Below are positions 15,120-42,564 of a stretch of DNA of 64,000 nt, piece by piece. Numbering within the stretch: the stretch's first letter is position 1; the number at the start of each line of letters is the position of its first letter. Both the position numbers and the translations under genes were made by a program. The stretch is from NCBI GenBank assembly GCA_900469475.1, contig UBXG01000019.1, positions 186,001 to 250,000 of the forward strand, written 5' to 3'. Origin of the DNA: Hyphomicrobiales bacterium (GTDB taxonomy: Bacteria > Pseudomonadota > Alphaproteobacteria > Rhizobiales > Rhizobiaceae). Below the pieces are notes generated by a model. It worked only from the letters and a program-made list of their open reading frames with translations. It did no database searches and was not told the DNA's origin.

Positions 15120-16466
15120 TTACTGCGCTGCCGCAGCCGGTTTCGTGAAGAAGCGGTTTTCCGGGCGCGGCAGGCCGAGGTGTTCGCGCAAGGTCGTGCC
15201 TTCGTAATCGCGGCGGAAGATGCCGCGGCGCTGCAGCTCTGGAACGACGCTGGTGGTCACGTCAAGCAGGCCCTGGGGCAGGAAGGGGAAGACGACATTG
15301 AAACCGTCGGAGCCTTCCTCGTACAGCCACTGCTCCATCTCGTCAGCGATGCTCTCAGGTGTGCCGACAAAGGCGAGGCCGGCATAGCCGCCGAGGCGCT
15401 GGGCAAGCTGGCGCACGGTCAGTTTCTCCGATTCGGCAAGCGCGATGACGCGCTCGCGGCCGCTCTTGCTGGCATTGGTTTCTGGAATTTCCGGCAGCGG
15501 GCCATCGGGATCGAATTTGGAGGCGTCATGCCCTAATGCGATCGACAGGGATGCGATGGCGCTATCGTAATGGACGAGGCTATCGAGCTTTGCCCGCTTG
15601 GCCTTTGCTTCCTCGATCGTGTCGCCCACAACGATGAAGGCGGCGGGCAGGATCTTCAGATGATCCGGATTGCGGCCGATCGCCTTCATCCGTCCCTTGA
15701 TATCGGCGAAGATCGACTTGCCGTCCGCCAGGTTACGCGGCGCGGCGAAGACCGCCTCGGCCGTTTCTGCGGCAAGCTGGCGGCCGGCATCCGATTGCCC
15801 GGCTTGGACGATGACGGGCCAGCCCTGCGGCGGTCGCGCGATGTTAAGAGGCCCGCGGACGCTCAGTTCCTCGCCCTTGTGCCCGAGGACATGCATCCGC
15901 TCGGGATCGAAGAAGATGCCGCTTTCGGGATCGCGGAGAAAGGCATCGTCGGCGAAGCTATCCCAGAGGCCGGTGACGACATCATAGAATTCGCGGGCGC
16001 GATGATAGCGCTCGCCATGTTCCATATGTTCTTCGAGGCCGAAATTAAGCGCGGCATCGGGATTGGATGTGGTGACTATATTCCAGCCGGCGCGACCGCC
16101 GCTGATGTGATCGAGGGAGGCGAAGCGACGGGCGATGTGATAGGGCAGATCAAAGGTGGTCGACGCCGTGGCGACGAGGCCGATCCTGTCAGTCACGGCG
16201 GCGAGCGCCGAAAGCAGGGTGAAGGGCTCGAAAGACGTCACCGTCTGGCTGCGCTTCAAAGCTTCGATCGGCATGTTGAGAACCGCCAAGTGATCGGCCA
16301 TGAAGAAGGCGTCGAATTTCGCCTTTTCCAGCTCCTGCGCAAAGCTCTTGATGTGCTGGAAATTGAAGTTGGCGTCCGGATAGGCGCCGGGATAACGCCA
16401 GGCGCCGGTATGCAGGCTGACGGGACGCATGAAGGCCCCGAGCTTCAATTGCTTCTGTTCGGTCAT
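15120..16466 (-). CDS. LLM-class FMN-dependent monooxygenase (NtaA/DszA type)
   Basis: A 448-residue flavin-dependent monooxygenase of the bacterial luciferase-like superfamily, NtaA/SnaA/DszA subgroup. Typical blocks are MADHLAVLN, TASTTFDLPYHIARRFASLDHISGGRAGWNIVTT (about residues 105-140) and VQAGQSDAGRQLAAETAEAVF. These enzymes use FMNH2 delivered by a separate reductase to oxidise nitrilotriacetate, dibenzothiophene sulfone, sulfonates and similar compounds. No reductase is adjacent. The start at 16466 is set by GAGAGAG before ATG. Upstream and divergently placed is a LysR-regulated SDR, but its link to this gene is unclear. Confidence 0.86.
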   Translation of the reverse strand: MTEQKQLKLGAFMRPVSLHTGAWRYPGAYPDANFNFQHIKSFAQELEKAKFDAFFMADHLAVLNMPIEALKRSQTVTSFEPFTLLSALAAVTDRIGLVATASTTFDLPYHIARRFASLDHISGGRAGWNIVTTSNPDAALNFGLEEHMEHGERYHRAREFYDVVTGLWDSFADDAFLRDPESGIFFDPERMHVLGHKGEELSVRGPLNIARPPQGWPVIVQAGQSDAGRQLAAETAEAVFAAPRNLADGKSIFADIKGRMKAIGRNPDHLKILPAAFIVVGDTIEEAKAKRAKLDSLVHYDSAIASLSIALGHDASKFDPDGPLPEIPETNASKSGRERVIALAESEKLTVRQLAQRLGGYAGLAFVGTPESIADEMEQWLYEEGSDGFNVVFPFLPQGLLDVTTSVVPELQRRGIFRRDYEGTTLREHLGLPRPENRFFTKPAAAAQ

Positions 16467-16603
16467 CGGCTCTCTCTCGAAAATCGCCAGGCTGTCATGA
16501 AGTAGCGACGGCATTGCCCGTAGAGTAATGCACTACGACGTAGGCGTGCCGGCCGCGCATTCAAAGAGCCGATTTCATTTATTTGATCGCTTTTGCGGAA
16601 TAT

Positions 16604-20733: not shown

Positions 20734-22701
20734 TCAGCGACGGCCGGCCGCAAACATCGGGCCGCCCTTGCTGGGCGGAAAGCCATAGCCATTGATCATG
20801 ACGAGATCGATATCGCTGGCGCGCGCGGCAACGCCTTCCAAAAGCAACGCCTCGCCTTCGTCAACCATGGCTTTCAGCAGGCGGCTGACGATCTCTTCTG
20901 GGGTGAAGCTCTTCGGCACAATGGCTTTTTCGGTGCGCGCGGCTTCGATCATGGCCGTTACCTCGGGATCAACAGTCCGTTTGCCATCGCGGTAGACATA
21001 CCAGCCGCGGCCCGTCTTCTGGCCGAAGCGTCCCGCTTCGCAGAGCCGGTCGGCGATGACGACGTAGCGCTCTGAGGGATCGCGTGTCGCGGCCTGCCGC
21101 TTGCGGCGCGCCCAGGCGATTTCCAAACCCGCCATGTCGAACACGGCAAAAGGCCCCATCGGAAAGCCGTAGGCCTCCAGTGCTGCGTCGATTTCCTGCG
21201 GCGAGGCGCCATCCTCGACCATGTATTCCGCTTCGCGGCGATAGGCGGAAAAGATGCGGTTGCCGATGAAGCCTTCGGTGACGCCCGACACCACAGGCAA
21301 CTTGCCGAGCCGTTTTGCCAGGGCAATGGCTGTCGCCAGCACATCCGGCGCCGTCTGCTTGCAATTCACCACCTCCAGGAGCCGCATGATATTGGCGGGC
21401 GAGAAGAAGTGCAGCCCGACAATCCGCTCTGGCCGTTGTGTTGCGGCAGCGATCACGTCGGGGTCGAGATAGCTCGTATTGGTGGCAAGAATCGCGTCGG
21501 CGCGAACGATCGTATCGAGGCGCTGGAACAGCTCGGTCTTGACTGTGAGATCGTCGAAGACAGCTTCGATGACGAGATCGGCCTGCACCAGCTGCTGCAT
21601 GTCGGCGGTGACGGTCAGCCGGCCCAAGCGATCTTCTCGCCCCGCAGCATCGAGGCGGCCGGACTGCACGGCCTTGTCGAGGAGGCCGGTGATGCGCTCG
21701 CGTCCCTTTTCCGCGACCTCTGTACTCTGCTCGACGCCGATGACCCGGTAGCCGCCATTGAGGGCGGAGACGGCAATGCCCGATCCCATCAGGCCAGTGC
21801 CGATGATACCGATGGTTTCGATCTTGCGCGGAGCGACTGTCTCCAGCCCCTCGACTTTGCCGGCGGCTCGCTCGGCGAAGAAGACATGCCGCAGGGCTGC
21901 GGCCTCTTCGCTGTCGCGGAGGGCAATAAATGTGCGGCGTTCCTCGGCCAGTCCTTCTGATAAAGAGACGGTCTCCGTCAGGCGCACAAGGCGGACGGCT
22001 TCGGCCGGTGCACGCTGGCCGCGTGCCTTGCGCAATGCGTCCGATGCCGCCTTGTCGATCGCATCTGTAGCTTCCGGAGGAACCGTCAGCGATCCCGTGC
22101 GGCGCAACGATGCGGCGTTGGTCATCTTGGCGTCGGCGATAGCTTCGGCGATCAGTTCGCCCTTGGTCACGCCATCGACGATGCCAAGCTTCAACGCTTC
22201 TGCGGCGGAGACCACACGGCCATTGGCGATCATATCGATGGCGGCGGCGATGCCTGTCAGGCGCGGCAGGCGCTGCGTACCGCCGGCGCCAGGTACGATG
22301 CCGAGTTTAACTTCGGGAAGGCCGAGTTTCGCGGCTGGCGTGGCAAGTCGTCGGTGGCAGGCGAGTGCCACTTCCAGGCCGCCGCCGAGCGCAACACCGT
22401 TGACAGCGGCGGCAACCGGCTTCCCAAAGTCTTCGATGCGGGAGATGACATCAGGTAGATGCGGCTGGACCGGCGGCTTGCCGAATTCCTTGATATCGGC
22501 GCCGCCGATGAAATTGTTGCCCGCTCCGGTCAGTACGACGCCGGCGACTGTGTCATCTTTCTCGGCACGATCCAAAGCGGCCATCAGGCCGGCCCGGACA
22601 TCGGCGGACAATGCGTTGACCGGTGCATTGTCGATGGTGACGACGAGGATCCCGTCGGCCAGCGCCGCCGAGATGGTGTCCGAAAAGCGCAATGCCGACA
22701 T
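20734..22701 (-). CDS. Bifunctional enoyl-CoA hydratase/3-hydroxyacyl-CoA dehydrogenase
   Basis: A 655-residue FadB/FadJ-type protein. Residues about 10-190 are a crotonase domain (NNFIGGADIKEF oxyanion hole; LPEVKLGIVPGAGGTQRLPR active-site loop). Residues about 293-480 are the NAD-binding dehydrogenase domain (IGIIGTGLMGSGIA), and the 3HCDH C-terminal domains follow. The protein stops at GFPPSKGGPMFAAGRR, about 40 residues earlier than usual for this family, where it meets the convergent cyclase gene. It is the last gene of the aromatic operon and should hydrate and oxidise the ring-derived acyl-CoA. Confidence 0.87.
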   Translation of the reverse strand: MSALRFSDTISAALADGILVVTIDNAPVNALSADVRAGLMAALDRAEKDDTVAGVVLTGAGNNFIGGADIKEFGKPPVQPHLPDVISRIEDFGKPVAAAVNGVALGGGLEVALACHRRLATPAAKLGLPEVKLGIVPGAGGTQRLPRLTGIAAAIDMIANGRVVSAAEALKLGIVDGVTKGELIAEAIADAKMTNAASLRRTGSLTVPPEATDAIDKAASDALRKARGQRAPAEAVRLVRLTETVSLSEGLAEERRTFIALRDSEEAAALRHVFFAERAAGKVEGLETVAPRKIETIGIIGTGLMGSGIAVSALNGGYRVIGVEQSTEVAEKGRERITGLLDKAVQSGRLDAAGREDRLGRLTVTADMQQLVQADLVIEAVFDDLTVKTELFQRLDTIVRADAILATNTSYLDPDVIAAATQRPERIVGLHFFSPANIMRLLEVVNCKQTAPDVLATAIALAKRLGKLPVVSGVTEGFIGNRIFSAYRREAEYMVEDGASPQEIDAALEAYGFPMGPFAVFDMAGLEIAWARRKRQAATRDPSERYVVIADRLCEAGRFGQKTGRGWYVYRDGKRTVDPEVTAMIEAARTEKAIVPKSFTPEEIVSRLLKAMVDEGEALLLEGVAARASDIDLVMINGYGFPPSKGGPMFAAGRR

Positions 22702-22718
22702 AATCTTAATCGCCTATA

Positions 22719-23114
22719 TTATTCCGGGATAACTGCCGTCGCCTGGATCTCGATCTTGGCACGATCTTCGACGAGGGCGACGACCTGCACGGCGGCCATG
22801 GCCGGGAAGTGCCGGCCGATGATTTCGCGGTAAGCCTGGCCGAGACCCTTCAGATTGCCGAGATATTCCTGCTTGTCAGTGAAATACCAGGTCATCGATG
22901 TGATGTGCTTCGGCTCGGCGCCTCCCTCGGCAAGGATGGCGACGACATTCTTCAGCGTCTGGCGCACCTGTTCGACGAAATCGTCGCTTTCGAATTCGCA
23001 GGCGGCATTCCAGCCGACCTGGCCGCCGACGAACACCATGCGGCCCGTCGCCGCCATGCCATTGGCATAGCCGATCGGCTTGGCCCAGCCCTCAGGTTGC
23101 AGGATGGTGTGCAT
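22719..23114 (-). CDS. RidA-family enamine/imine deaminase
   Basis: A 131-residue YjgF/YER057c/UK114 (RidA) protein with the typical blocks GRMVFVGGQVGW, EQVRQTLKNVVAIL and RHFPAMAAVQVVALVEDRAKIEIQATA; the conserved arginine before FPA... is absent and reads His-Phe-Pro. RidA proteins hydrolyse reactive enamines and imines to ketones plus ammonia. It overlaps the thioesterase gene by 23 bp. In an anthranilate CoA pathway the ring product is itself a 2-amino-enoyl-CoA, so this could be the dedicated deaminase step. That role is inferred from position. Confidence 0.87.
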   Translation of the reverse strand: MHTILQPEGWAKPIGYANGMAATGRMVFVGGQVGWNAACEFESDDFVEQVRQTLKNVVAILAEGGAEPKHITSMTWYFTDKQEYLGNLKGLGQAYREIIGRHFPAMAAVQVVALVEDRAKIEIQATAVIPE

Positions 23115-23523
23115 CGGTCGTCTCCAGATGAGAGGTCAGTGCGGCGCGGAGATCATCCGGCCATTCAATGGATCTATGCGTATCGAGCGACGTGGCGACG
23201 ACGCGGTGTTTGGCCGTCCACAGCACATGGCCGTTCGCCGAGACCTGATGTTCGAGATCGAGCGAGGAGCGGCCGACACCATGGACGGCAAGGACGAATT
23301 CGAGATCGTCACCCTGCAGGCCCGGCTTGATGAAAGTCAGATCGAGCCGCACGGTGGGGACACCGATGCGGCGGTCGTCGATCAATTTTCGCCAGGAAAA
23401 GTCGATCGAGGCGAAATAGTCTTCCAGCACTCCGACGAGGATGTTCAGGTACGAGGGGAAATAGGCGATCCCGGAGGGATCGCAATCTCCGAAGCGCAGG
23501 GGTCTGGTGGTTCTAAATGCCAC
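23092..23523 (-). CDS. 4HBT-type acyl-CoA thioesterase
   Basis: A 143-residue hot-dog-fold thioesterase with the 4-hydroxybenzoyl-CoA thioesterase motif FGDCDPSGIAYFPSY (about residues 11-25), containing the catalytic aspartate. Translation starts at GTG (23521-23523) with TGAGG upstream, 8 bp from the gcdH stop. In an aryl-CoA pathway it may release CoA from dead-end aryl-CoA esters or act on a ring-opened product. Within the operon it is coupled to RidA by overlap. Confidence 0.87.
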   Translation of the reverse strand: MAFRTTRPLRFGDCDPSGIAYFPSYLNILVGVLEDYFASIDFSWRKLIDDRRIGVPTVRLDLTFIKPGLQGDDLEFVLAVHGVGRSSLDLEHQVSANGHVLWTAKHRVVATSLDTHRSIEWPDDLRAALTSHLETTDAHHPAT

Positions 23524-23531
23524 GGCCGGCC

Positions 23532-24713
23532 TCAGTTCGAAAAGGCGGCGATGCCGGTGATGGCGCGGCCGAGGATGAGGGCGTGGATGTCGTGGGTGCC
23601 CTCATAGGTGTTGACCACTTCGAGGTTGACGAGGTGGCGCGCGATGCCGAACTCATCCGAGATACCGTTGCCGCCAAGCATGTCGCGGGCGGCGCGGGCG
23701 ATATCAAGCGCCTTACCGCAGCTATTGCGCTTGAGGATGGAGGTGAGTTCGACCGGCGGATGGCCTTCTTCCTTCATGCGGCCAAGACGCAGGCAGCCCT
23801 GCAGGCCGAGCGTGATCTCGGTCACCATGTCGGCAAGCTTCTTCTGGATCAGCTGATTGGCGGCAAGGGGACGGCCGAACTGCTTGCGGTCGAGCACATA
23901 CTGGCGTGCCTTGGCATAGCAATCCTCCGCCGCGCCGAGCGCACCCCAGGCAATGCCGAAGCGTGCGGAGTTGAGGCAGGTGAAGGGGCCCTTGAGGCCG
24001 GATACGTTCGGCATCAGGTTTTCTTCCGGCACGAAGACATTCTCCATCACGACTTCGCCGGTGATAGATGCGCGCAGCCCCACCTTGCCGTGGATGGCGG
24101 GCGCGGAAAGGCCTTTCCAGCCCTTTTCGAGGATGAAGCCGCGGATGAGGCCATCCTCGGTCTTAGCCCAGACGACAAAGACATCGGCGATCGGCGCGTT
24201 CGAAATCCAGGTCTTGGCGCCGGTGAGGCTGTAGCCGCCATCGACCTTCTTTGCACGGGTGACCATCGAGCCGGGATCGGAGCCGTGGTTCGGTTCGGTG
24301 AGGCCGAAGCAGCCGATCCATTCACCGGTCGCGAGCTTCGGCAGGTACTTCTGTTTCTGTGCATCCGACCCGAAGGTTTCGATCGGCACCATGACCAAGG
24401 AAGACTGAACGCTCATCATCGAGCGATAGCCGCTATCGACACGTTCGACTTCGCGGGCGATGAGACCATAGGCAACGTAGCTCAGGCCGGCGCCGCCATA
24501 TTCCGGCGAGATTGTTGGGCCGAGCAGGCCGAGCTCACCCATTTCGCGGAAGATCGCCGGATCGGTTTTTTCGTGGCGGAAGGCTTCCAGCACGCGGGGT
24601 GCGAGCTTTTCCTGCGCGTAGGAATGCGCGGTATCCAGCACCATTCGCTCGTCGTCGCTCAGCTGCTCCGTCAGCCGGAACGGGTCGGCCCAGTCGAAAA
24701 TCTCGCGGCTCAT
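23532..24713 (-). CDS. gcdH: Glutaryl-CoA dehydrogenase
   Basis: A 393-residue acyl-CoA dehydrogenase with the marks of glutaryl-CoA dehydrogenase: Arg97 in [15 protein letters not shown], which binds the glutaryl carboxylate, and the catalytic base Glu371 in [19 protein letters not shown]. It converts glutaryl-CoA to crotonyl-CoA and CO2, passing electrons to ETF. The start at 24713 has AAAGGGAG 10 nt upstream; an ATG two codons earlier is too close to it. Its presence in this operon implies that the ring pathway ends in glutaryl-CoA. A repeat separates it from the other acyl-CoA dehydrogenase. Confidence 0.92.
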
Positions 24714-24730
24714 GTGCATATCTCCCTTTG

Positions 24731-24829
24731 GAGCGGTTCAGTTTTACAGAGCGACTGAACCGCTCAATTTGTTTGTTCTACGCAATTCCGGACGGAAAAC
24801 CGTTTCACACAATTCCTGGAATTGCTCTA
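24731..24829. repeat. Rhizobial intergenic repeat, copy 2
   Basis: Two parts. AGCGGTTCAGT and ACTGAACCGCT (about 24732-24765) form an inverted repeat. This is followed by CGCAATTCCGGACGGAAAACC and TTCCTGGAATTGCTCTA, matching the element at 13684-13738. The right edge supplies the TAG stop of the acyl-CoA dehydrogenase gene (24827-24829). It lies inside the aromatic operon. Confidence 0.75.
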
Positions 24830-26005
24830 TGCCTTCAAAAGTTCGCGCGCGACGATGAGTTTCTGAACTTCGGTCGCACCTTCATAGATGCGAAGCGCGC
24901 GGATCTCCCGATAGAGTTTTTCCGTTATCTCGCCCGATTTCACGCCGCGCCCGCCAAAGAGCTGAACGGCGCGGTCGATGACGTTCTGCGCGGTTTCCGT
25001 CGCCGTCATCTTCGCCATGGCCGCCTCGCGCGTCGTCGGCAACCGCTGCACGTCGCGGCGCCAAGCTGCCCGATAGGTGAGCAGCGCCGCCGCGTCGATG
25101 CCGGTCGCCATATCGCCGAGGGCGGCCTGCGTCAACTGAAGGTCGGCAAGAGTGGCACCGAACATCGGGCGCGACCGCGCGTGGGCAAGCGATTCATCGA
25201 GCGCGCGGCGGGCAAAGCCGAGGCCGGCAGCCGCCACCGAGGCGCGGAAAATATCGAGCGTGCGCATGGCGATCTTGAAGCCTTCGCCCGGTGCGCCGAG
25301 GCGGCGCGAAGCAGGAATGCGGCAATTGTCGAAACGGATCGTCGCCAGCGGATGCGGCGCAATGACCTCGATGCGTTCGGCAATCGAGAAGCCGGGATCG
25401 TCGGCAAAGACGATGAAGGCCGAAATGCCGCGTGTTCCAGGCGCTTCGCCAGTGCGCGCGAAGACGGTGTAGACGTCGGCTATGCCGCCATTGGAAATCC
25501 AGGTCTTCTCGCCGTCGAGAACATAGTGGTCGCCGTCGAGGCGTGCGGCGCAGCTCATCGCGGCCACATCGGAGCCGGCGTCCTTTTCCGATAGCGCGAA
25601 GGCGGCGAGCCAGTCACCCGAGCGTACCTTGGGCAACACGGCGGCCCGCAATTCGGGCGAGCCGGAGAGGCCGATGGCGCCGGTGCCGAGCCCCTGCATG
25701 GCAAAGGCAAAATCGGCAAGGCCGTCATGCCAGGCCAGCGTTTCGCGGGCGAGGCAGACCATGCGGGAATCGATCAGCGGTTCGCTATCGGAAGATCCAG
25801 TGGCGGCGGTGAGAAGCCCGGCTTCGCCCAGCGCCTTGACCAGCTTCCGGCATGCGCCATCGACATCGGCGTGACCGATCGAGGCCATGGCGGCGGACCT
25901 GGCGAAGGCATCGACTTCGGTCGCGAAACGGTGATGGCGCTCTTCGAAGAAGGGCCACTCCAAATGATCGCGGGTCGGGCCGGCGAGGCTACTTGCCGTG
26001 GACAT
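24827..26005 (-). CDS. Acyl-CoA dehydrogenase
   Basis: A 392-residue flavoprotein of the acyl-CoA dehydrogenase family. [16 protein letters not shown] and [18 protein letters not shown] are the FAD-binding signature, [12 protein letters not shown] follows, and Glu375 in [16 protein letters not shown] is the predicted catalytic base. It starts 4 bp after the enoyl-CoA hydratase stop, so it is tightly coupled. Unlike gcdH it lacks the glutaryl-binding arginine block. It probably oxidises a cyclic or ring-opened acyl-CoA intermediate. Its stop codon falls at the edge of a repeat, but the protein looks complete. Confidence 0.88.
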
Positions 26006-26009
26006 CCTC

Positions 26010-26861
26010 TTAATCCCCCTGGAATTCCGGCCGGCGCTTAGCGGCGAAAGCCTCGAAGGCGCGGCGGAAATCCTGCGTTGCCATGCAGATCGCCTGCGCC
26101 TGCGCCTCGGATTCGATCATTTCGTCGATACCCATCGCCCATTCCTGGTTCAGCATGGTCTTGGTCATGCCATGGGCGAACCAGGGACCATCGGCGAGCG
26201 AACGGGCGAGCTTAACCGCTTCGCTCTCGAGGTCGGCGCTCGCGTGCAGTCCGTTATAGAAGCCCCAGGCCTGTCCTTCCGCTGCCGCCATCGAGCGGCC
26301 GGTAAAGAGAAGCTCGGCGGCACGGCCCTGGCCGACAATGCGGGGCAGGATGCCGCAAGCACCCATATCCGCACCGGCGAGGCCGACACGGGTGAAGAGG
26401 AAGGCGGTCTTTGCCTGGGGCGTCGCGAGCCGCAGATCGGAGGCCATGGCGAGGATGGCGCCAGCGCCGGCGCAGATGCCATCGACTGCCGAGATGATCG
26501 GCTGTGGACATTTGCGCATCGCCTTGACGAGATCGCCGGTCATGCGGGTGAAGGCCAGAAGCTCGGGCATCGCCATGCGGGTCAAGGGCTCGATGATCTC
26601 GAAGACATCGCCGCCGGAGGAGAAATTGCCGCCGGCGCCGGTCAACACGATGGCGCGGATATCCGATGCATAGGCTAGATCGCGGAAGAGATCGCGCAGC
26701 TCGGCATAGCTGTCGAAGGTCAGCGGGTTCTTACGTTCCGGGCGGTTGAGGCGGATGGTGGCGACGCGGCCATCTTCACTGACATCCCAGAGGAAGTGCT
26801 CAGGCTTGTAATCCTTGAGGGGCTTCAAATGCCCCTTCATCGTCATGTCCCGATCGCTCAT
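26010..26861 (-). CDS. Enoyl-CoA hydratase/isomerase-family protein
   Basis: A 283-residue crotonase-fold protein: [15 protein letters not shown] is the first oxyanion-hole loop and [19 protein letters not shown] with [17 protein letters not shown] the second. The catalytic glutamates of classical hydratases are replaced here (Ala-Gly-Ala-Asp-Met), so it may act as a different crotonase, for example a ring-cleaving hydrolase or isomerase. It is separated from the SDR by 3 bp and from the dehydrogenase by 4 bp. GGGGAG precedes the start. Confidence 0.87.
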
Positions 26862-26864
26862 CCC

Positions 26865-27644
26865 TCAAATCTCCCCACCGGCAACCGCGATTGCCTGTCC
26901 ATTGATCGATGCCGCGGCCGGCGAGGCCAGCCATAGCACGGTGTCGGCGACTTCTTCCGGCGTGACGAGCCGTCCCTGCGGATTGGACTTCGTGAACTCG
27001 GCAAGGGTCTGCTCAGCCGTCCGACCGGTCTTGGCGACGATCGTCTCGATCGAGCGCTGGATGATCGGCGTGTCGGTGAAGCCGGGGCAGACAGCGTTGA
27101 CGGTGATGCCGGTTTTCGCCAGTTCCAGCGCCAGCGAGCGGGTCAGGCCGACGACGCCGTGCTTGGCGGCGACGTAAGCCGAGACGTAACCATAGCCCTT
27201 CAGACCGGCCGTCGAGGCGATGTTGATGATGCGTGCGCCGTGGCCACGAGCCTTTAGGTCGGGGAGGGCAGCCTGCGTCACCACGAAAACGCCGGTGAGG
27301 TCGACGGAGAGGACATGGTTCCAAGCCTCCAGCGTCGTCTTCTCGAAAGAGGCGCTCGGCGCTTCTCCGGCATTGTTGACGAGGATATCGACCGGGCCGA
27401 ACTTCTCACGCACCTTGGCAAGGCCCTGGGCAACGGCGTCGGGGCTGGTGACATCGAAGCCATCGACGACAAAAGCGTGCACGCCGATTTCGGCGGCAAC
27501 CGCTTCCAGCGGCTCGCGGCGGCGACCGGCGAGACTGACGCGCGCACCCTCGGCGGCAAGCGCCTTGGCGATCGCGGCACCTATGCCGCTGCCGGCCCCG
27601 GTGACGAGGGCGTGACGGCCGCTGAGTTTGCCCGAAGTCGTCAT
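26865..27644 (-). CDS. SDR-family dehydrogenase of the aromatic operon
   Basis: A 259-residue SDR with TGAGSGIGAA near residues 13-22, NNAGEAPSA and the catalytic YVAAK. The start at 27644 is chosen because GAGGAAG precedes it and it lies 7 bp after the monooxygenase stop. It resembles 3-hydroxyacyl-CoA or 3-hydroxybutyrate-type dehydrogenases, which would suit reduction or oxidation of the 5-oxo group of the ring intermediate. The exact step is inferred. Confidence 0.87.
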   Translation of the reverse strand: MTTSGKLSGRHALVTGAGSGIGAAIAKALAAEGARVSLAGRRREPLEAVAAEIGVHAFVVDGFDVTSPDAVAQGLAKVREKFGPVDILVNNAGEAPSASFEKTTLEAWNHVLSVDLTGVFVVTQAALPDLKARGHGARIINIASTAGLKGYGYVSAYVAAKHGVVGLTRSLALELAKTGITVNAVCPGFTDTPIIQRSIETIVAKTGRTAEQTLAEFTKSNPQGRLVTPEEVADTVLWLASPAAASINGQAIAVAGGEI

Positions 27645-27651
27645 ATCTTCC

Positions 27652-29970
27652 TCACTTAGCCGGTGCTGCCGTGGCTGCGCGGGCAAGGTTGGTTTCATAT
27701 TGCGTCTTGCCGGAAAGATATTGCTTCGGCCAGGGAATGGAAGTCAGCCCGATCTTGGCGGCTTCGTGCAGTGACCAGGCGGGGTCCGCCAGATGCGGGC
27801 GGGCAATGGCGCAAAGATCGGCGCGGCCCGCCGCAATGATCGAATTGGCGTGATCGGCCTCGGAGATTGCACCGACGGCGATCGTCGGGATGCCGATCTC
27901 ATTGCGGATCTTGTCGGAGAAGGGCGTCTGGAACAGGCGGCCGTAAACCGGCTTTTCCTGTTTCGATACCTGGCCTGATGAGCAGTCGATCAGGTCGGCG
28001 CCCGCTTCCTTGAACATGCGCGCGAAGATGGCCGCATCTTCCGGTGTGTTACCGCCGTCAGTCCAGTCATGGCAGGAGAGGCGGATCGAGATCGGCTTGC
28101 CCGCCGGCCAGATCGCGCGCATTGCCCTGAAGATCTCCAGGGGATAGCGGGCGCGGTTTTCATGGCTGCCGCCATACTCGTCATCGCGCAGATTGGTCAG
28201 CGGCGACAGGAAGCTCGACAACAGATAGCCGTGGGCGCAATGCAATTCCAGCCAATCGGCGCCAGTCTCGACCGCCAGTTCGGTCGAGCGGATGAAGTCG
28301 GCCTTGACGCGCTCCATATCGGCGCGATCCATGGTCTTCGGCACTTGACTGTTCTTGAGATAAGGGATTGAGGATGCCGAAACCAGCGGCCACCCGCCTT
28401 CGGCAAGCGGCTGATCGATGCCTTCCCAGGCAAGTTTCGTCGCACCCTTACGGCCGGCATGGCCGAGCTGGATGCCGACCTTGGCGGCGCTGTTCATGTG
28501 AACGAAGTCGATGAGCCGCTTCCACTGCGCCACCTGCTCTTCGTTCCAGAGGCCGAGGCATCCGGGCGTGATGCGGGCATCGGGCGTGACGCAGGTCATT
28601 TCCGCGAAGATCAGCCCTGCGCCGCCAAGGGCGCGAGAGCCGAGATGGACGATATGGAAATCGTTCATCACGCCGTCTTCAGCCGAGTACATGGCCATCG
28701 GCGAGACCACGATACGGTTGACGAGCTGGACCTCGCGCAGACGATAGGGCGTGAACATCGGCGGCAGGCAGCGGTCGTTACCGACCTCAAGGCCGGATTT
28801 TTCGGCAAACCAGCGCTCATAGCCTTCAAGCCAGGTCTTGTCGCGCAATCGAAGATTTTCGTGGCTGATGCGCTGGGAGCGCGTCAACATCGAATACATG
28901 AATTGCGGCGGCTCGAGCGTATCGGCATAGCGGCGGCCGACGACTTCGAACCATTCCATCGCATTGCGGGCGGCGTTCTGGATGCGGGCGACGTCGACGC
29001 GGCGGATTTCTTCATAGGTCTCGAGGACTGCCGGGATTTTGTCCTTCTCGTGCCCGTGGATCTGGAACTGGCGGGTGAGCTCGATGGCATCGTCAATGGC
29101 AAGCTTGGTGCCGGAGCCGATCGCGAAATGTGCGGTATGGGCGGCATCACCCATCAGCACGACATGGGAGTTGCCGTTGAAATGGCTCCACTTGCCGCAG
29201 ATCAGGCGGTTGAAATTCAGCCAGGCCGAACCGCGGATATGGCGGGCATTGGTCATCAGCGAAGCGCCTTCGAGCACTTCGGAAAACAGGTTTTCGCAGA
29301 AGGCGATGGAGCCGTCCTGATCCATCTTGTCAAGGCCGTGGGCGAGATAGGCTTCTTCCGTCGTCTCGACGATGAAGGTCGAGGTCTTGTCGTCGAACTT
29401 GTAGATATGCGCCTGGAACCAGCCGTGATCGGTGCGGCGGAAATCGAAGGTGAAGGCGTCGAAAAGCTTGTTGGTGCCGAGCCAGATATAGCGGTTCGGC
29501 CGCGTGATCATGTCAGGCTGAAAGATCTCCGGATAATGATTGCGGATCTTGGAATTGAGGCCGTCGGAACCGATGACCAGATCGGCATCCGGATAGTCGA
29601 GATCGGAATTGACGTCCGTTTCGAAGATAAGCTCCACGCCGAGCGCCTCGCAGCGGCGCTGCAGGATGTTCAAAAGCTTCTTGCGGCCGATGCCGACGAA
29701 GCCGTGGCCCGATGTGCGCTGGCGCGTGCCCTTGAAGAGGACTTCGATATCGTCCCAATGGTTAAAGGCGTCCTCGATTTCGGCGGCACTTTCCGGGTCC
29801 CATTCCCGCATCGAAACCATGGTCGCATCGGAAAAGACGACACCCCAGCCGAAAGTATCATAGGGGCGGTTGCGCTCGACGACGCGGATGGAGTGCTCGG
29901 GATGGAGCTTCTTCATCAGAAGCGCGAAGTAAAGCCCTGCGGGGCCGCCGCCGATACAGACGATGCGCAT
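27652..29970 (-). CDS. Fused aryl-CoA monooxygenase/reductase (ACMR type)
   Basis: A 772-residue two-domain flavoprotein. Residues 1 to about 395 are a class A FAD monooxygenase ([19 protein letters not shown] dinucleotide fold; [20 protein letters not shown] motif). Residues about 405-765 are an Old Yellow Enzyme-type FMN reductase ([39 protein letters not shown]). This fusion is 2-aminobenzoyl-CoA monooxygenase/reductase of the Azoarcus/Aromatoleum evansii abm pathway; databases often call it salicylyl-CoA 5-hydroxylase/oxidoreductase. It hydroxylates and then dearomatises 2-aminobenzoyl-CoA. It is the first gene of the minus operon and divergent from the CoA ligase. Confidence 0.9.
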
Positions 29971-30011
29971 CGCTTTTCCCTCCTCGTCAGACCGAAGCCG
30001 ACCTCAAAATC

Positions 30012-30155
30012 ATTTAAACTTAAAATATCTTGTCGATGCCATTCGTCAAGGCTTTTCCTGTTCGGATTTGCGGAGGGCTGATGGTCATAACATCGTGAAA
30101 ATTGAGAATTTTCTTTCTAAATCAATGGGAATTTAAAAATAGTTTATACTTAAAA
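30012..30155. promoter_or_regulatory. Paired operator sites between monooxygenase and CoA ligase
   Basis: ATTTAAACTTAAAA at 30012-30025 and GTTTATACTTAAAA at 30142-30155 are near-identical and each extends into a shared tail (ATNTCTTG). Site one is about 42 bp from the monooxygenase start and site two about 112 bp from the ligase start. Both match the palindrome TTTTAAGCTTAAAA (12 and 11 of 14). The 297-bp gap has no gene. Probably one operator per divergent promoter. Confidence 0.6.
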
Positions 30156-30267
30156 TTTCTTGCTTGAACATTGCGGGCTTCGGTGCGATCTTTTTTAGCA
30201 ACGCCACATGCGCCGCGGGGAAACGGCTGTCGTGGCGATTGATCGACAAGAATGCGGGAGCAAGGCG

Positions 30268-31881
30268 ATGCTGGGACCAACCGGTCATACCGATACATTC
30301 ACGCGAGACAATCTGCCGCCTTTCGACGAATGGCCCGAGCTACGGATGGAGGGTTTCGACTATCCGGAATGGCTGAATGCCGGCTTCGAACTCAGCGACC
30401 GGATGGTGGAGAAGGGTTTCGCCGATCACGTTGCCCTGATCGGCAACGGCCGCCGCCGCACCTACAAGGAGCTGGCGGACTGGACCAACCGCATCGCGCA
30501 CGCGCTCGTCGAGAACTTCGGCGTCAAGCCCGGCAATCGCGTTCTCATCCGCTCCGGCAACAATCCCGCCATGATCGCCTGCTGGCTGGCGGTGACGAAG
30601 GTCGGCGCTGTTGCCGTCAATACGATGCCGATGCTGCGGGCAGGCGAGCTTTCGAAGATCATCGACAAGGCGGAAATCTCGTTTGCGCTTTGCGATACAA
30701 GGCTGCTGGAAGAGCTTGTCACTGCGGCCAAGGACAGCCAGTTTTTGAAGCAGGTTGTCGGCTTCGACGGCACCGCCAACCACGATGCGGAACTCGACCG
30801 CATTGCGCTCAACAAGCCCGTTCGCTTCGAGCCGGTGAAGACCGGGCGGGATGATGTGGCGCTGCTCGGTTTCACCTCCGGATCGACGGGCGTGCCCAAG
30901 GCGACCATGCATTTCCATCGCGATATCCTGATTATCGCCGATGCCTATGCCAAGGAAGTGCTGCAGGTGACGCCGGATGACGTCTTCATCGGCTCGCCAC
31001 CGATTGCCTTCACCTTCGGACTCGGAGGTCTGGTCATCTTCCCCTTGCGCTTCGGCGCATCGACGGCGCTGCTGGAAAACGCTTCGCCGAAGAACATGGT
31101 CGAGATCATCCAGGAATATGGAGCGACCATCAGCTTCACCGCACCGACGGCCTATCGTGCCATGCTGGCGGCGATGGAGGAGGGGGCGGATCTGTCTTCG
31201 CTTCGCATTGCCGTTTCCGCCGGCGAGACGCTGCCGGGGCCGATTTTTGAGGAATGGACGCGCAAGACCGGCAAGCCGATCCTCGACGGCATCGGCTCGA
31301 CCGAGATGCTGCATATCTTCATCTCCAATCATCTCTCCGACGCCAAGCCGAATTGCACGGGCAAGCCGCTGAAGGGCTATGAGGCCCGTGTCGTCGATGA
31401 CGGGATGAACGAGGTTCCGCGCGGGACCATCGGCAAACTCGTCGTTCGCGGGCCGATCGGCTGCCGTTATCTCGCCGACCACAGGCAGGCCGATTACGTG
31501 CGAGATGGCTGGAACCTGACGGGCGACAGCTTCATTCAGGATGAGGACGGTTATTTCCATTTCGCCGCCCGTTCCGACGACATCATTCTTTCGGCCGGTT
31601 ACAATATTGCCGGGCCGGAAGTCGAGGCAGCCCTTCTTTCGCATGCCGACGTGCTCGAATGCGCTGTGATCGGCAAACCGGACGAGGAACGGGGTTATAT
31701 CGTGCAGGCGCATGTCGTGCTGGTGCCTGGGGTCACAGGGTCGGATCTACTGGCTAAGGCGCTGCAGGATCACGTCAAGGCCGTCATCGCGCCTTATAAA
31801 TATCCGCGCTCCATCGTCTTCGTCGACGCTTTGCCGAAGACAGAATCCGGCAAGATACAGCGCTTCCGCCTGCGGAACTAG
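30268..31881 (+). CDS. Aryl-CoA ligase, probably 2-aminobenzoate-CoA ligase
   Basis: A 537-residue AMP-forming acyl/aryl-CoA synthetase of the benzoate-CoA ligase type. P-loop FTSGSTGVPKATMHFH, the substrate-loop motif DGIGSTEMLHIFIS (about residues 345-358), the hinge region TGDSF and the C-terminal catalytic lysine in PKTESGKIQRF are all present. The start at 30268 has GGAGCAAGG ahead of it; an ATG at 30208 is less likely. Divergent from the ACMR-type enzyme, it should activate the aromatic acid (anthranilate favoured over salicylate because a RidA gene is in the operon). Confidence 0.88.
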   Translation: MLGPTGHTDTFTRDNLPPFDEWPELRMEGFDYPEWLNAGFELSDRMVEKGFADHVALIGNGRRRTYKELADWTNRIAHALVENFGVKPGNRVLIRSGNNPAMIACWLAVTKVGAVAVNTMPMLRAGELSKIIDKAEISFALCDTRLLEELVTAAKDSQFLKQVVGFDGTANHDAELDRIALNKPVRFEPVKTGRDDVALLGFTSGSTGVPKATMHFHRDILIIADAYAKEVLQVTPDDVFIGSPPIAFTFGLGGLVIFPLRFGASTALLENASPKNMVEIIQEYGATISFTAPTAYRAMLAAMEEGADLSSLRIAVSAGETLPGPIFEEWTRKTGKPILDGIGSTEMLHIFISNHLSDAKPNCTGKPLKGYEARVVDDGMNEVPRGTIGKLVVRGPIGCRYLADHRQADYVRDGWNLTGDSFIQDEDGYFHFAARSDDIILSAGYNIAGPEVEAALLSHADVLECAVIGKPDEERGYIVQAHVVLVPGVTGSDLLAKALQDHVKAVIAPYKYPRSIVFVDALPKTESGKIQRFRLRN

Positions 31882-32548: not shown

Positions 32549-33399
<851 letters not shown>

Positions 33400-33403
<4 letters not shown>

Positions 33404-34272
33404 CGGCTTCCCTCCGGGATGCCGATCTCGCGACGCAATTGTTCGAAAACGGCTTGCGGCACCGGCGTCAGCCCGGCATCCGGCCGGTCGTAGCGCGGCC
33501 CGGCCGATATCAAGGATTTTGTATAGATGTGCTGAGGATGCGCCAGCACGTCGCTCGTGCGCCCCTCTTCGATCACCTTGCCGGCGTAAAGCAGGGTCAC
33601 ACTGTCGCAGATCTGGGCGACGACGCCGAGATCATGCGTGACGAAGATGACGGCGGTGCCGTGCGCTTCCTGCAGGCCGCGGATCAGCCGCAGGATCTGC
33701 TTCTGCACGGTGACGTCGAGCGCCGTGGTCGGCTCGTCGGCGACGACCAATTTCGGCTCGAGAGCGAAGGCGGCGGCGATCAAGATGCGCTGGCGCATGC
33801 CGCCCGACAATTCGTGGGGATAGGCGCGCAATACACGCTCGGGATCGCGAATATGCACTTCTTCCAGCAGCTTCAGCGCACGCTGGCGGGCGTCGCCTGA
33901 TGACATGCCCCGCTTCAACCGTAGTCCGTCGGTCAACTGGGCCTCGATGCGGCGACCGGGATTGAGTGCCGTCTGCGGGTCCTGCGGGATCAGCGAGATC
34001 TCGCTGCCCATGATGTCTCGCAATTCCTTGGCGGAAAGCGTGAGTAGATCGCGGTTTTCGAACAGGATCGAGCCGTTCGTGACGCGGACGCCGCGCGGCA
34101 GGATGCCGAGCAGGGCCTTGGCGATGGTCGATTTTCCGGCGCCACTTTCGCCGACGAGCCCGCGCACTTCGCCGCGTTCCAACGTCAGGGAAACATCGCG
34201 CAGGATCGGTGCGCCGCCGTCGCGGTCGGATACGGCGTTGAGGCCGGTAATGGAGAGGAGTGGAGATGTCAT
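33400..34272 (-). CDS. Peptide-type ABC transporter ATPase (OppD-like)
   Basis: A 290-residue ATPase with Walker A GESGAGKST, signature ELSGGMRQRILIAAA, Walker B VVADEPTTALDVTVQ and H-loop FVTHDLGVV. The start at 34272 overlaps the OppC stop by the ATGA pattern; the frame is open much further upstream but that is inside oppC. C-terminus GLTPVPQAVFEQLRRE is typical of the family. Together with the OppF-like protein it makes the ATPase heterodimer. Confidence 0.9.
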
Positions 34273-35162
34273 CGGCGCATTACCGGATCGAGGGCGCGGC
34301 GCAGGCCGTCGCCGAGTTGATTGAAGGCAAGCACCGTCGCAAAGAGCGCGATCAGCGGCACGACCAGCACCCACCAGCCCTGATAGATCATCTGCCGACC
34401 CTCGGCGATCATGCCGCCCCAGGTCGGCGTATCGGATGCGACCGACAGGCCGACAAAGGACAGGATGGCTTCGACGATGACGGCAATTCCCATTTCCAGG
34501 CTGACGAGGGCGATCAGCACCGGCGTTACATTGGGCAGGATTTCGCTGAAGAGGATTCTCACTCGTGAAAAACCGATCGTGTGGGCAGCGGTCACATAAT
34601 CCATCCGCGCCTGCGCCTGTGTTTCCGAGCGCACGACGCGACAGAAGCGTGTCCAGTCGATGATGACGATGGCCGCGATGACCGAATGCACGCCGGAGCC
34701 GAAGACGGCGACGAGGAGGATCGACAGCAATACAGGCGGAAACGCCATCCAGATATCGACGAGGCGGGAGATCACCTTGTCGATCCAGCCGCCGTACCAG
34801 CCGGCGAGAAGGCCGAGCAGCGTGCCGATGAACGCCGCGAGCCCGGCCGCGACGAAGGCGACCGTAAGCGCGATGCGCGTGCCGAAGATGGCGCGGGAGA
34901 GCACATCGCGGCCGAGATCGTCCGTGCCCAGCAGAAAGCCGGGATCGGAGCCTTCGATCCATGCCGGCGGCAGAGTGCCGGACATCAGATCCTGCTCCAG
35001 CGGGTCCTTCGGCGCGATATAGGGCGCGAAGATCGCGAGGATGAGGAGAATGAGAACAAAGCCGCCGCTGAAGATCACCTTCGGCTCGGACAGCAGCGCC
35101 CGGATGCGTTTCGCGATTTTGGAGGGCGGGCGCCGTATGGCGGGCGAGGTGACGTCAGCCAT
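34269..35162 (-). CDS. Peptide-type ABC transporter permease (OppC-like)
   Basis: A 297-residue inner-membrane protein with a cytoplasmic N-terminus, about six TM segments and the GTDDLGRDVLSRAIFGTRI block typical of OppC/DppC. It overlaps oppB by 8 bp and the oppD-like gene by 4 bp. Second permease of the importer. Confidence 0.9.
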   Translation of the reverse strand: MADVTSPAIRRPPSKIAKRIRALLSEPKVIFSGGFVLILLILAIFAPYIAPKDPLEQDLMSGTLPPAWIEGSDPGFLLGTDDLGRDVLSRAIFGTRIALTVAFVAAGLAAFIGTLLGLLAGWYGGWIDKVISRLVDIWMAFPPVLLSILLVAVFGSGVHSVIAAIVIIDWTRFCRVVRSETQAQARMDYVTAAHTIGFSRVRILFSEILPNVTPVLIALVSLEMGIAVIVEAILSFVGLSVASDTPTWGGMIAEGRQMIYQGWWVLVVPLIALFATVLAFNQLGDGLRRALDPVMRR

Positions 35163-36162
35163 GCGCGAGCCTCGGATTGAAGGCCGCGACGAGAAGGTCG
35201 ACCGCCAGATTGACGAGAATGAAGAGGGCGCTGAAGACCAGTACCAGTCCCTGGATCAGCGGCAGGTCGCGGTTGATGACGGCATCGATCGCCATGTTGC
35301 CAATGCCAGGATAGGCGAAGATGCGCTCGACGATGACGCTGCCGCCGATCAGGAAGGTGAATTGCACGCCGGTGAGCGCGATCGTCGGGCCTACGGCATT
35401 GCGCAGCGCCTCCTGCAGCACCAGTCGCAGCTCTGACATTCCTTTCAATTTGGCGAGCAGGATATAGTCCTGCACCATGGCCTCGGAGAGTGCGGCCTTC
35501 AGCACGCGGGCGATGATGGCGGCCAGCGGCAGACCGAGCGCCAGGACCGGCATGACCATATGGGCGCAGATATCGGCGAAGATACCGAAGCGAAGCGTCA
35601 GCAGGCTTTCAATAAGGTAGAAGGGGGTCGCGAATTGTGCGTCGATGCTCGGATCGATGCGTCCGGAGAGCGGGAAAAGCGGAAAAAGAACGCCGAGGAC
35701 CAACACAAGAGCTAGCGCCCAGACGAAATCCGGAACCGCCAGGAAAAGACCGTTCAAGCTATCGATCATAGGCTCGAAAATCGTGCGGCGGGCAAGCGTG
35801 CCGATGATGGCGACCGCGCTGCCGAGAAGAATAGCCAACGCCAACGCGGCAAAGGCAAGCTCCAGCGTTGCGGGGAGGCGCTCGCCGAGCAGGGAGAGCA
35901 CATCGCGCTTCAAGGAAATCGATGTCCCAAAATCGCCCGTCAGAACCGCTTTCAGCCAGAGCCAGAATTGCATGGTCAGGCTCGCATCGAGACCGTAATG
36001 GGCGCGCAGTGCGGCGATATCGGCAGGGCTTGCGCCCGGCGAGATCATCATCGCGATCGGATCTCCGGGTACGACGCGCAGCAGGACGAAGACAATCACC
36101 GCCACGCCGAAGAGGGTGATTGCGGCCATGATGAGGCGGTTCAATATGGAGACTGCTATCAT
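35155..36162 (-). CDS. Peptide-type ABC transporter permease (OppB-like)
   Basis: A 335-residue inner-membrane permease: the N-terminal hydrophobic segment FGVAVIVFVLLRVVPGDP, then about five more TM segments and an EAA loop near ILLAKLKGMSELRLVLQEAL. It is the first permease gene after the binding protein, from which it is separated by 230 bp containing a RIME-like repeat. C-terminus overlaps oppC. Confidence 0.9.
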   Translation of the reverse strand: MIAVSILNRLIMAAITLFGVAVIVFVLLRVVPGDPIAMMISPGASPADIAALRAHYGLDASLTMQFWLWLKAVLTGDFGTSISLKRDVLSLLGERLPATLELAFAALALAILLGSAVAIIGTLARRTIFEPMIDSLNGLFLAVPDFVWALALVLVLGVLFPLFPLSGRIDPSIDAQFATPFYLIESLLTLRFGIFADICAHMVMPVLALGLPLAAIIARVLKAALSEAMVQDYILLAKLKGMSELRLVLQEALRNAVGPTIALTGVQFTFLIGGSVIVERIFAYPGIGNMAIDAVINRDLPLIQGLVLVFSALFILVNLAVDLLVAAFNPRLAHG

Positions 36163-36211
36163 GCGTTATGAGTTCCGATCGCATGTGCTGACTGTAACAT
36201 GGAGAGTACAG

Positions 36212-36367
36212 GCCCCTCATCCGGCCTATCGGCCACCTTCTTCCCGTTTTGACGGGGAGAAGGGGATAGAAGCACCCGGAGCCTTCCTTCCGACCGTTTT
36301 TCCAGACGAGGGTACAGAGGTCGCCCCCTCTCCCCGTCAGAACGGGGAGTGGGCTAGGGTGAGGGGC
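36212..36367. repeat. RIME-like mosaic repeat, copy 2
   Basis: A 156-bp element with inverted ends (GCCCCTCA...TGAGGGGC) and two internal palindromes (CTTCCCGTTTTGACGGGGAG and CTCCCCGTCAGAACGGGGAG-type). Same layout as 14318-14512. It sits inside the ABC importer operon, between the binding protein and the first permease, where it may fold in the mRNA and reduce downstream expression relative to the binding protein. The 36163-36392 gap holds nothing else. Confidence 0.75.
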
Positions 36368-36392
36368 AGCCACATACTCAAAGCCTGATGCA

Positions 36393-37928: not shown

Positions 37929-38002
37929 GGTCACTCCGTTCCCCTGTTAAGCGGCAGAAAAGCATGACGCCCAACTGCTGCTGGCGATTTATTGTCGGAA
38001 TG

Positions 38003-38016
38003 CTTTAATCTTAAAA
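38003..38016. promoter_or_regulatory. Operator-like site upstream of the importer operon
   Basis: CTTTAATCTTAAAA, 12 of 14 positions as in TTTTAAGCTTAAAA, about 75 bp upstream of the binding-protein start on the minus side. The 37929-38285 gap between the importer and iorA otherwise holds two promoters and the palindrome at 38091. Confidence 0.5.
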
Positions 38017-38090
38017 TACATATTTTGGAGCGGCAAGCGCTTTCTCTAGTGCTTGTAAAGAATCCGATGCTTTTTTGGCATCCATATTAA

Positions 38091-40439: not shown

Positions 40440-40448
40440 GAGGGCGAT

Positions 40449-42008: not shown

Positions 42009-42030
42009 GGTTGCTGAGAGCATAAGCCGC

Positions 42031-42537: not shown

Positions 42538-42564
42538 CGACGAAACTCCTCCTTCGGAAACGTG

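Follow-up and report, generated by a model that had tools for sequence, protein, structure and literature searches.

A 2-aminobenzoyl-CoA gene cluster in a Rhizobiaceae genome shares a predicted operator with neighboring isatin genes, suggesting a candidate route from isatinate

We analyzed a 64,000-nucleotide stretch of DNA (hereafter the window) from a Hyphomicrobiales bacterium of the family Rhizobiaceae (GenBank assembly GCA_900469475.1, contig UBXG01000019.1, positions 186,001 to 250,000 of the forward strand), which carries genes resembling the coenzyme A (CoA)-dependent anthranilate pathway of Azoarcus evansii. Eight genes run along the minus strand from 29970 to 20734. The first encodes a fusion of FAD_binding_3 and Oxidored_FMN domains (27652-29970), assigned as 2-aminobenzoyl-CoA monooxygenase/reductase (ACMR), which scored 1345 bits (cut-off, 1078) against the NCBIfam model NF006101, named "bifunctional salicylyl-CoA 5-hydroxylase/oxidoreductase." It is followed by a short-chain dehydrogenase/reductase (SDR; 26865-27698; adh_short), a crotonase-fold enzyme that is a candidate ring-opening hydrolase (26010-26861; NF006107, 490 bits, cut-off 330), an acyl-CoA dehydrogenase (24827-26005; Acyl-CoA_dh), a glutaryl-CoA dehydrogenase (GcdH; 23532-24719; similar to the solved GcdH 3gnc), a 4HBT-type acyl-CoA thioesterase (23092-23523; 4HBT_2), a RidA-family protein of a Met-type subfamily described below (22719-23114; Ribonuc_L-PSP), and a FadJ-like enoyl-CoA hydratase/3-hydroxyacyl-CoA dehydrogenase (20734-22701; ECH_1, 3HCDH_N, and 3HCDH). 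On the plus strand lies a benzoate-CoA-ligase-like aryl-CoA ligase, presumably a 2-aminobenzoate-CoA ligase (30208-31881; AMP-binding), which scored slightly below the cut-off of TIGR02262 (363 versus 375 bits). All nine are open frames belonging, by Pfam and NCBIfam, to the families given to them in an initial annotation of this region. From their content, the eight minus-strand genes and the divergent ligase very probably represent a 2-aminobenzoyl-CoA (anthranilate) cluster of the A. evansii type, as far as the class of pathway is concerned.

The initial annotation had presented these genes as a complete-looking operon with 3- to 8-bp gaps and overlaps. This description holds for three joints (3, 4, and 8 bp) and for two overlaps, one of 23 bp between the thioesterase and RidA frames and one of 47 bp between SDR and ACMR (a 7-bp gap instead if SDR begins at an internal Met19, its possible start), but not for the spacings of 17 bp between RidA and FadJ and 107 bp between acyl-CoA dehydrogenase and GcdH. 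The ligase, listed as a member of the operon, is indeed an aryl-CoA ligase but is divergent from the ACMR gene, 237 bp away, and thus lies outside the ACMR transcript. "Complete-looking" was too strong, because neither a thiolase nor a regulator is found inside 20734-31881 and a thiolase is located elsewhere in the genome. The endpoint at 31881 was also placed too early; we read the system as running on to 47588. No Rfam family matched the window at gathering thresholds.

Past the ligase, an opp/dpp-type ABC transporter (two ATPases, two permeases, and an SBP_bac_5 binding protein by Pfam) occupies 32549-37934 on the minus strand. The next two genes, on the plus strand, encode the alpha (38286-40439) and beta (40449-42008; POR and DUF6537 domains; NF006179, 713 bits, cut-off 348) subunits of a 2-oxoacid:ferredoxin oxidoreductase. 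The pair is annotated as indolepyruvate oxidoreductase (IOR), and its alpha subunit is IOR/IadA-like, yet against TIGR03336, the indolepyruvate oxidoreductase equivalog, that subunit scored only 290 bits, below the cut-off of 651. Its thiamine diphosphate and Fe-S motifs are intact, the GDG motif being present in 33/33 copies and the C-terminal Fe-S cysteines in 31/33, with the other two gapped there; no solved structure matched it by sequence at an E value of 1e-5. Three minus-strand genes encode a MarR regulator (42031-42537), a CrtO/CrtI-like FAD oxidoreductase (AO1; 42565-44154; Pfam Amino_oxidase and NCBIfam), and an isatin hydrolase (44226-45128), which scored 410 bits to isatin hydrolase B (4j0n) and 307 bits to isatin hydrolase A (5nna) and whose His/Asp/Glu columns are kept in 29-30 of 30 relatives. 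A second CrtO/CrtI-like FAD oxidoreductase (AO2; 45404-46975; same families) and a second MarR regulator (47073-47588) follow on the plus strand; both MarR assignments come from Pfam.

The two halves are linked by a predicted operator, the palindrome TTTAANCTTAAA. Exact copies occur at 30013-30024, 54 bp upstream of ACMR; at 38004-38015, between the transporter binding protein and IOR alpha; and at 50623-50634, where the palindrome is perfect on both strands and precedes genes for an aminotransferase and an amino-acid-type ABC transporter, whose membership is uncertain. Predicted copies with one mismatch lie on the ligase side of the ACMR/ligase gap (30143-30154) and between isatin hydrolase and AO2 (45341-45352), so that all three divergent gaps (ACMR/ligase, binding protein/IOR, and isatin hydrolase/AO2) contain a site. 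The three exact copies are the only ones in the 6.35-Mb draft genome, and of the 21 distinct genome sites with at most one mismatch, 6 fall in a 23-kb part of the window (30013-52999); a reversed-motif control matched one place in the whole window. The sixth of these sites, at 52988 and with one mismatch, precedes a class V aminotransferase-like gene (51646-52926); the genes at 47653-52926, near the operators at 50623 and 52988, may be members of the regulon. Among 112 ACMR loci from other genomes and the window with enough upstream sequence, 45 had the operator, allowing one mismatch, in the 200 bp upstream of ACMR, compared to 1 for the reversed control, and among the 26 most window-like loci (at least 1380 bits) the counts were 24 and 0. 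When 12 ACMR promoters chosen for having the operator were aligned, it followed a TTGACG/A element in 9. It is very probable that TTTAANCTTAAA ties the ACMR operon to the genes at 38004-47588 under shared regulation, with a MarR repressor at these sites controlling both halves. From its position and the adjoining operator, we infer that the opp/dpp-type transporter also belongs to the system.

We surveyed 398 genomes of the phylum and 14 control genomes for ACMR at the NF006101 cut-off. Matches above the cut-off were found in 64 of the 398 and in none of the controls, and full-length matches below it in 7 further genomes brought the total to 71/398. The closest relatives of the window's fusion among the matches listed were those of Rhizobium sp. 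P38BS-XIX (96%) and R. lusitanum (95%). Gene neighborhoods were mapped for 121 ACMR loci (80 genome matches listed, 12 plasmid loci, the window, and 28 loci from further genomes, 8 of which were taken in because they carry the oxidoreductase and some of which may duplicate listed species). A gene was called present by its bit score to the corresponding window protein, and enzymes of like function but unlike sequence would thus be missed. In 83/121 loci a crotonase and either an acyl-CoA dehydrogenase or RidA lay beside the fusion; given how sparse the fusion itself is, this clustering goes beyond chance. These 83 loci form a beta-oxidation type. The remainder comprised a cupin/FAH type (7 loci), a gentisate-dioxygenase type (5 loci), and 26 loci left unassigned, many of which had short flanks. 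Full flanks (at least 7.5 kb on both sides) were available for 83 of the 121 loci, comprising 65, 6, 4, and 8 of these types, respectively. The 65 full-flank beta-oxidation loci contained, besides crotonase (65, by definition), acyl-CoA dehydrogenase in 61, RidA in 60, SDR in 54, ligase in 44, FadJ in 15, and GcdH in 14. RidA and SDR were present in all six full-flank cupin/FAH loci, and RidA, SDR, and crotonase were all absent at the thresholds used from the four gentisate-type loci.

The cluster is not uniform. In a FastTree phylogeny of the 121 ACMR proteins, the window falls within a set of 15 made up of 10 beta-oxidation and 5 cupin/FAH loci, and the label changes three times for the cupin/FAH type and twice for the gentisate type, which argues that the types are not each one clade. 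Likewise, none of the other mapped genes was detected at these thresholds within 10 kb of the ACMR gene of Aromatoleum buckelii (72% identical). An initial strict clustering of flanking genes yielded little besides MarR and transporters. The seven cupin/FAH-type clusters (L041, L044, L046, L123, L124, L145, and L154) keep SDR and RidA, but neither a crotonase nor an acyl-CoA dehydrogenase like those of the window lies nearby; there, an FAH-family protein may open the ring instead.

Anthranilate is a product of tryptophan breakdown, and the company kept by the operon in other genomes points to it as the substrate. On a plasmid of Ensifer sp. PDNC004, all eight minus-strand genes occur in the window's order within the series ligase, kynA, transporter, kynU, MarR, ACMR, SDR, crotonase, acyl-CoA dehydrogenase, GcdH, thioesterase, RidA, FadJ, and PcaF, where GcdH is a second acyl-CoA dehydrogenase that we identified by locus mapping. 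Aminobacter carries a like gene set with kynurenine genes and without GcdH, and overall kynU or kynA lay within 11 kb of ACMR in 9/121 loci. The window's genome has a kynureninase of its own on another contig, 75% identical to the Ensifer copy.

The initial annotation had favored anthranilate while leaving room for salicylate, in which case the ligase would form salicylyl-CoA, the fusion would hydroxylate it to gentisyl-CoA, and the thioesterase would release gentisate. The name of NF006101, whose cut-off the fusion passes, and the presence of a thioesterase fit such a route, as does the occurrence of a gentisate-dioxygenase-like gene with an FAH hydrolase in 5/121 ACMR loci. In addition, a 2026 report on Massilia (PMC13215587) lists an annotated sdgC (salicyloyl-CoA 5-hydroxylase) among the salicylate routes, with the main credit going to other genes. 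However, no recognizable gentisate dioxygenase is encoded in the window's genome, the best match reaching 20 bits over 66 residues, and elsewhere the same operon is adjoined by kynurenine-pathway genes. In the five dioxygenase-type loci themselves, no SDR, crotonase, acyl-CoA dehydrogenase, or RidA resembling the window's was found, whereas the window has all four; a C-N hydrolase (4/4) and a racemase of the maleate-isomerase kind (3/4), which fit an amino compound, occur in those with full flanks. Given the kynurenine genes, the genome's own kynureninase, and the missing gentisate dioxygenase, the substrate of the operon is much more likely anthranilate, by way of 2-aminobenzoyl-CoA, than salicylate. 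We rejected salicylate as the main substrate on genome content and gene company and consider it very improbable.

The gentisate-dioxygenase-type loci comprise four in which the oxidoreductase is present (L114, L122, L211, and L214) and one in which it is not (L146). They carry a thioesterase, an FAH hydrolase, and a C-N hydrolase, with the racemase in 4/5. We set them aside as salicylate clusters, because the C-N hydrolase and racemase suit an amino product, and their genes suggest a 5-hydroxyanthranilate route (by ring cleavage, an amidase, and a maleate isomerase) more than a salicylate route. As such, they could be candidates for the anthranilate-to-gentisate pathway of old indole work. Two related stretches, from Ruegeria pomeroyi and Shinella, combine the oxidoreductase pair with a thioesterase, a C-N hydrolase, and a gentisate-dioxygenase-like gene and have no ACMR in the stretch covered.

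For the window, we propose that the ligase would activate anthranilate to 2-aminobenzoyl-CoA, which ACMR would hydroxylate and reduce to 2-amino-5-oxocyclohex-1-ene-1-carbonyl-CoA, as reported for A. evansii. RidA may then hydrolyze the enamine and free ammonia, the SDR may adjust the ketone, and the crotonase may open the ring by hydrolysis, giving a dicarboxylyl-CoA of seven carbons. Beta-oxidation of this product would fall to acyl-CoA dehydrogenase, FadJ, and a PcaF thiolase whose gene lies elsewhere in the genome. That PcaF gene adjoins pcaI and pcaJ, and its product is 67% identical to the PcaF that ends the Ensifer operon. Canonical enoyl-CoA hydratases use two catalytic Glu residues; the crotonase has neither, whereas the FadJ-like protein of the same operon, an internal control, retains those of its GGGLE and LPEV motifs. 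Instead the crotonase has an Asp165, found in 61/62 copies (one gap), that aligns to an Asp of the solved 1,2-epoxyphenylacetyl-CoA isomerase 4fzw. These residues suit an isomerase or, alternatively, a MenB/BadI-like hydrolase.

The operon's RidA also departs from its family. Aligned to solved RidA proteins, its Met106 takes the place of the canonical Arg, which we take to be Arg105 in Escherichia coli RidA and which binds the substrate carboxylate. We compared 87 RidA copies from mapped loci, some of them from stretches without ACMR, chosen by at least 60 bits to the window's RidA so that unlike RidA genes could be missed; 86 had Met at this position and 1 had Ile. Tyr16, Asn18, Trp35, and Glu116 were conserved in 86/87 and Glu122 in 87/87, while control Rid proteins had Arg (Sinorhizobium meliloti) or Trp (R. 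leguminosarum) at the Arg position. With this substitution the protein falls outside the standard imine deaminases, and we infer that loss of the Arg is as expected for a CoA thioester substrate. Release of ammonia from the enamine ring product, the role first suggested for it, is in keeping with gene company, since RidA is present in 66/71 full-flank beta-oxidation and cupin/FAH loci (60/65 and 6/6) and in 0/4 gentisate-type loci, which are not independent of one another and in which the aromatic ring is probably kept; it is the replaced Arg that speaks against it. Schuhle et al. reportedly described, in 2001, genes for a RidA-type "translation inhibitor" and a MarR protein in the A. evansii cluster, and the presence of RidA in such a cluster is not new.

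GcdH is a genuine glutaryl-CoA dehydrogenase and the genome's only close copy: it scored 728 bits to 3gnc, the next best protein in the genome is 33% identical, and it contains both GYRS and N[TA]YEG[TS], which we take to be signature motifs and which occur in 15 and 14 of 15 copies, respectively. The proposal that glutaryl-CoA is the exit metabolite was therefore sound as to the enzyme and not as to the metabolite. PMC4539516 gives the A. evansii ring product with an oxygen at C5 and onward beta-oxidation, so that reaching glutaryl-CoA would require an extra deoxygenation. In anthranilate-grown Arthrobacter, excerpts of PMC3534580 describe a C7H8O4 acid present as its CoA ester, which may be cyclohexanedione-carboxyl-CoA and would suit deamination ahead of ring opening. 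By our reasoning, ring opening would give 4-oxo- or 4-hydroxypimeloyl-CoA, from which a C5 unit equivalent to 2-oxo- or 2-hydroxyglutarate would then form. Since on paper there is no route to lose the C5 oxygen without an extra enzyme, we dropped glutaryl-CoA as the exit while keeping the link to GcdH.

RidA and GcdH might instead be passengers, RidA being a housekeeping or chaperone-like protein and GcdH serving lysine or tryptophan breakdown. The missing Arg and the low count of GcdH in the full-flank beta-oxidation loci (14/65) would fit, and we know of no chemistry linking the ring product with glutaryl-CoA. We nevertheless consider this unlikely, because the Met-type RidA, with a conserved residue set of its own, accompanies nearly all beta-oxidation and cupin/FAH loci and because GcdH, the genome's sole close copy, recurs in 15/121 loci, including those of Rhizobium, Ensifer/Sinorhizobium, Ramlibacter, and Massilia.

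The upper half of the system (38004-47588) would feed the same intermediate. The isatin hydrolase is predicted to convert isatin to isatinate. Enzymes of the 2-oxoacid oxidoreductase superfamily convert 2-oxoacids to acyl-CoA and CO2, and isatinate is a 2-oxoacid whose acyl-CoA product would be the substrate of ACMR. For this reason we propose that the IOR pair decarboxylates and oxidizes isatinate, an aryl-glyoxylate, to 2-aminobenzoyl-CoA and CO2 with no need for a ligase or ATP. Whether the pair at 38286-42008 is such an isatinate:ferredoxin oxidoreductase, bypassing free anthranilate, and whether IadA/IadB have this role too, we regard as evenly balanced on the sequence evidence.

Across the 398 genomes, the IOR clade was found in 25, isatin hydrolase in 25, and the full-length ACMR fusion in 71. 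All 25 IOR genomes had ACMR and 23 had isatin hydrolase (hypergeometric p, 3e-21 and 7e-33), and after collapsing to genera the counts were 16/16 and 14/16 (2e-12 and 5e-18). Two genomes had IOR without the hydrolase (G262 and G019) and two the hydrolase without IOR (G327 and G237). The clades were cut post hoc at natural score gaps (1048 to 874 bits for IOR, 275 to 137 bits for the hydrolase), counting in three genomes where IOR was found as two pieces (G019, G225, and G322) and leaving out seven weaker IOR matches (815-874 bits). In Alloyangia pacifica, a single locus contains indole monooxygenase, flavin reductase, isatin hydrolase, the IOR pair, both FAD oxidoreductases, MarR, ACMR, SDR, and RidA. 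AO1/AO2-like CrtO/CrtI FAD oxidoreductases accompany isatin hydrolase and IOR there and in L110, L203-L207, and L209; perhaps they act in isatin formation or electron transfer.

It is also possible that the anthranilate operon and the isatin arm are separate, with isatinate reaching anthranilate in some other way and the oxidoreductase acting on indolepyruvate or another arylpyruvate. This would agree with the annotation of the pair and with the presence of the ligase, through which anthranilate could be the junction, and excerpts of PMC9613470 report free anthranilic acid as a product in iad-type auxin degraders. The score far below the indolepyruvate equivalog cut-off argues against it, as do the near-absolute co-occurrence of IOR with ACMR and isatin hydrolase, the operator common to both halves of the window, the chemistry of the superfamily, and the absence of a window-type ligase from several loci with both IOR and ACMR (L040, L043, L110, L114, and L122). 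We hold the separation of the two to be somewhat doubtful.

Several observations weigh against reading the locus as one system. Genome-wide, the operator motif matched 29 times, compared to 49 for its reversed control (both strands), and only its clustering is unusual. Fifteen sites lie outside the window, and most have no evident link: in the five stretches examined, one site with one mismatch lies ~47 bp upstream of pcaF, albeit inside the pcaIJF gene row, and the others were at a luciferase-type monooxygenase, upstream of a D-arabinitol-dehydrogenase-like gene, inside a long frame, and in an unannotated region. The operator was found near only 6/35 copies of IOR, 5/9 of AO2, 4/30 of isatin hydrolase, and 5/12 of the binding protein, counts in which neighboring genes share one gap, which makes the shared operator a feature of some lineages and not all. 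The co-occurrence p values take no account of relatedness or horizontal transfer, count in the window's own genome as one of the 25 with IOR, and rest on post hoc thresholds. No IadD-like dioxygenase that might supply isatin was found in the genome (best match, 96 bits over 103 residues with an Azospirillum Rieske query), and the known ring product does not account for glutaryl-CoA. Moreover, the window holds both ligase and IOR. A window-type ligase was absent beside IOR in 8/12 loci versus 24/71 (Fisher p, 0.051), a borderline contrast that is truly weaker, since an Azospirillum locus (L119) has an annotated AMP-binding protein below the score threshold; we therefore did not retain replacement of the ligase by the oxidoreductase. 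Taking both sides together, we consider it likely that the lower half and the shared regulon form one anthranilate-type system, an assessment that does not extend to the isatinate step.

Two further groups of genes lie near the system. Beyond it, an AcrB-type efflux pump (60661-63858) stands with an HlyD-type partner (59251-60540), and near the operon end an NtaA/DmoA-type flavin monooxygenase (15120-16514) lies beside a LysR regulator and SDR genes.

If the proposal is true, a CoA thioester would connect the breakdown of indole, isatin, and auxin with the 2-aminobenzoyl-CoA pathway, and the isatinate step could close a gap in the bacterial destruction of indole and of the plant hormone auxin. 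Many genes labeled indolepyruvate oxidoreductase or salicylyl-CoA 5-hydroxylase would then carry the wrong name, and a subfamily of RidA whose active site is altered would be tied to a possible CoA-thioester enamine. What the analysis adds is a concrete proposal for the fate of isatinate. Such a step, from isatinate to 2-aminobenzoyl-CoA by an oxidoreductase, was not found in the literature searched, which left out most subscription papers, nor is an isatinate-to-CoA step mentioned in the accessible parts of two auxin-degradation papers (PMC8383072 and PMC11630574).

The lower operon is a further example of a known, uncommon pathway. To our knowledge, it resembles the anthranilate pathway of A. 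evansii in its ligase, its fused monooxygenase/old yellow enzyme-type reductase, its beta-oxidation-type genes, and its RidA-type gene, a likeness that, like that to the IadAB of Variovorax below, was judged by description and gene company and not by direct sequence comparison. It differs in having GcdH, FadJ, SDR, and thioesterase in one operon with a divergent ligase and in having an isatin hydrolase/oxidoreductase arm under the same operator. Its transporter is of the opp type, in contrast to the branched-chain type of many related loci. The model for the isatinate step is phenylglyoxylate:acceptor oxidoreductase, which converts an aryl-glyoxylate to an aroyl-CoA; the likeness is one of reaction and not of sequence, and the proposed substrate differs in its ortho amino group. 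In Cupriavidus sp. SHE, indole breakdown was likewise linked to a 2-aminobenzoyl-CoA cluster, and both isatin and isatic acid were detected there (Qu et al. 2017, via PMC6221969), although the accessible part of that review gives no isatinate oxidoreductase; it calls the role of isatin hydrolase open, asks for a gene study, and notes doubt over isatin's place in indole breakdown. In an iad-type auxin degrader of the genus Variovorax, excerpts of PMC9613470 report dioxindole, isatin, isatinic acid, and anthranilic acid and treat iadA/iadB, an IOR pair, as exclusive markers of iad loci with no reaction stated. The window shares with the iad loci of Variovorax, Bradyrhizobium, and Achromobacter an IOR-type pair and, by prediction for the window, MarR control and isatin and isatinic acid as intermediates, and it differs from them in its coupling to ACMR and in that no iadDE-type dioxygenase was mapped in it, with a weak partial match in the genome. 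Unlike the solved isatin hydrolases A and B, the window's copy is set among ACMR and oxidoreductase genes, and because this isatin arm shares its operator with the operon, the locus as a whole differs from the known systems.

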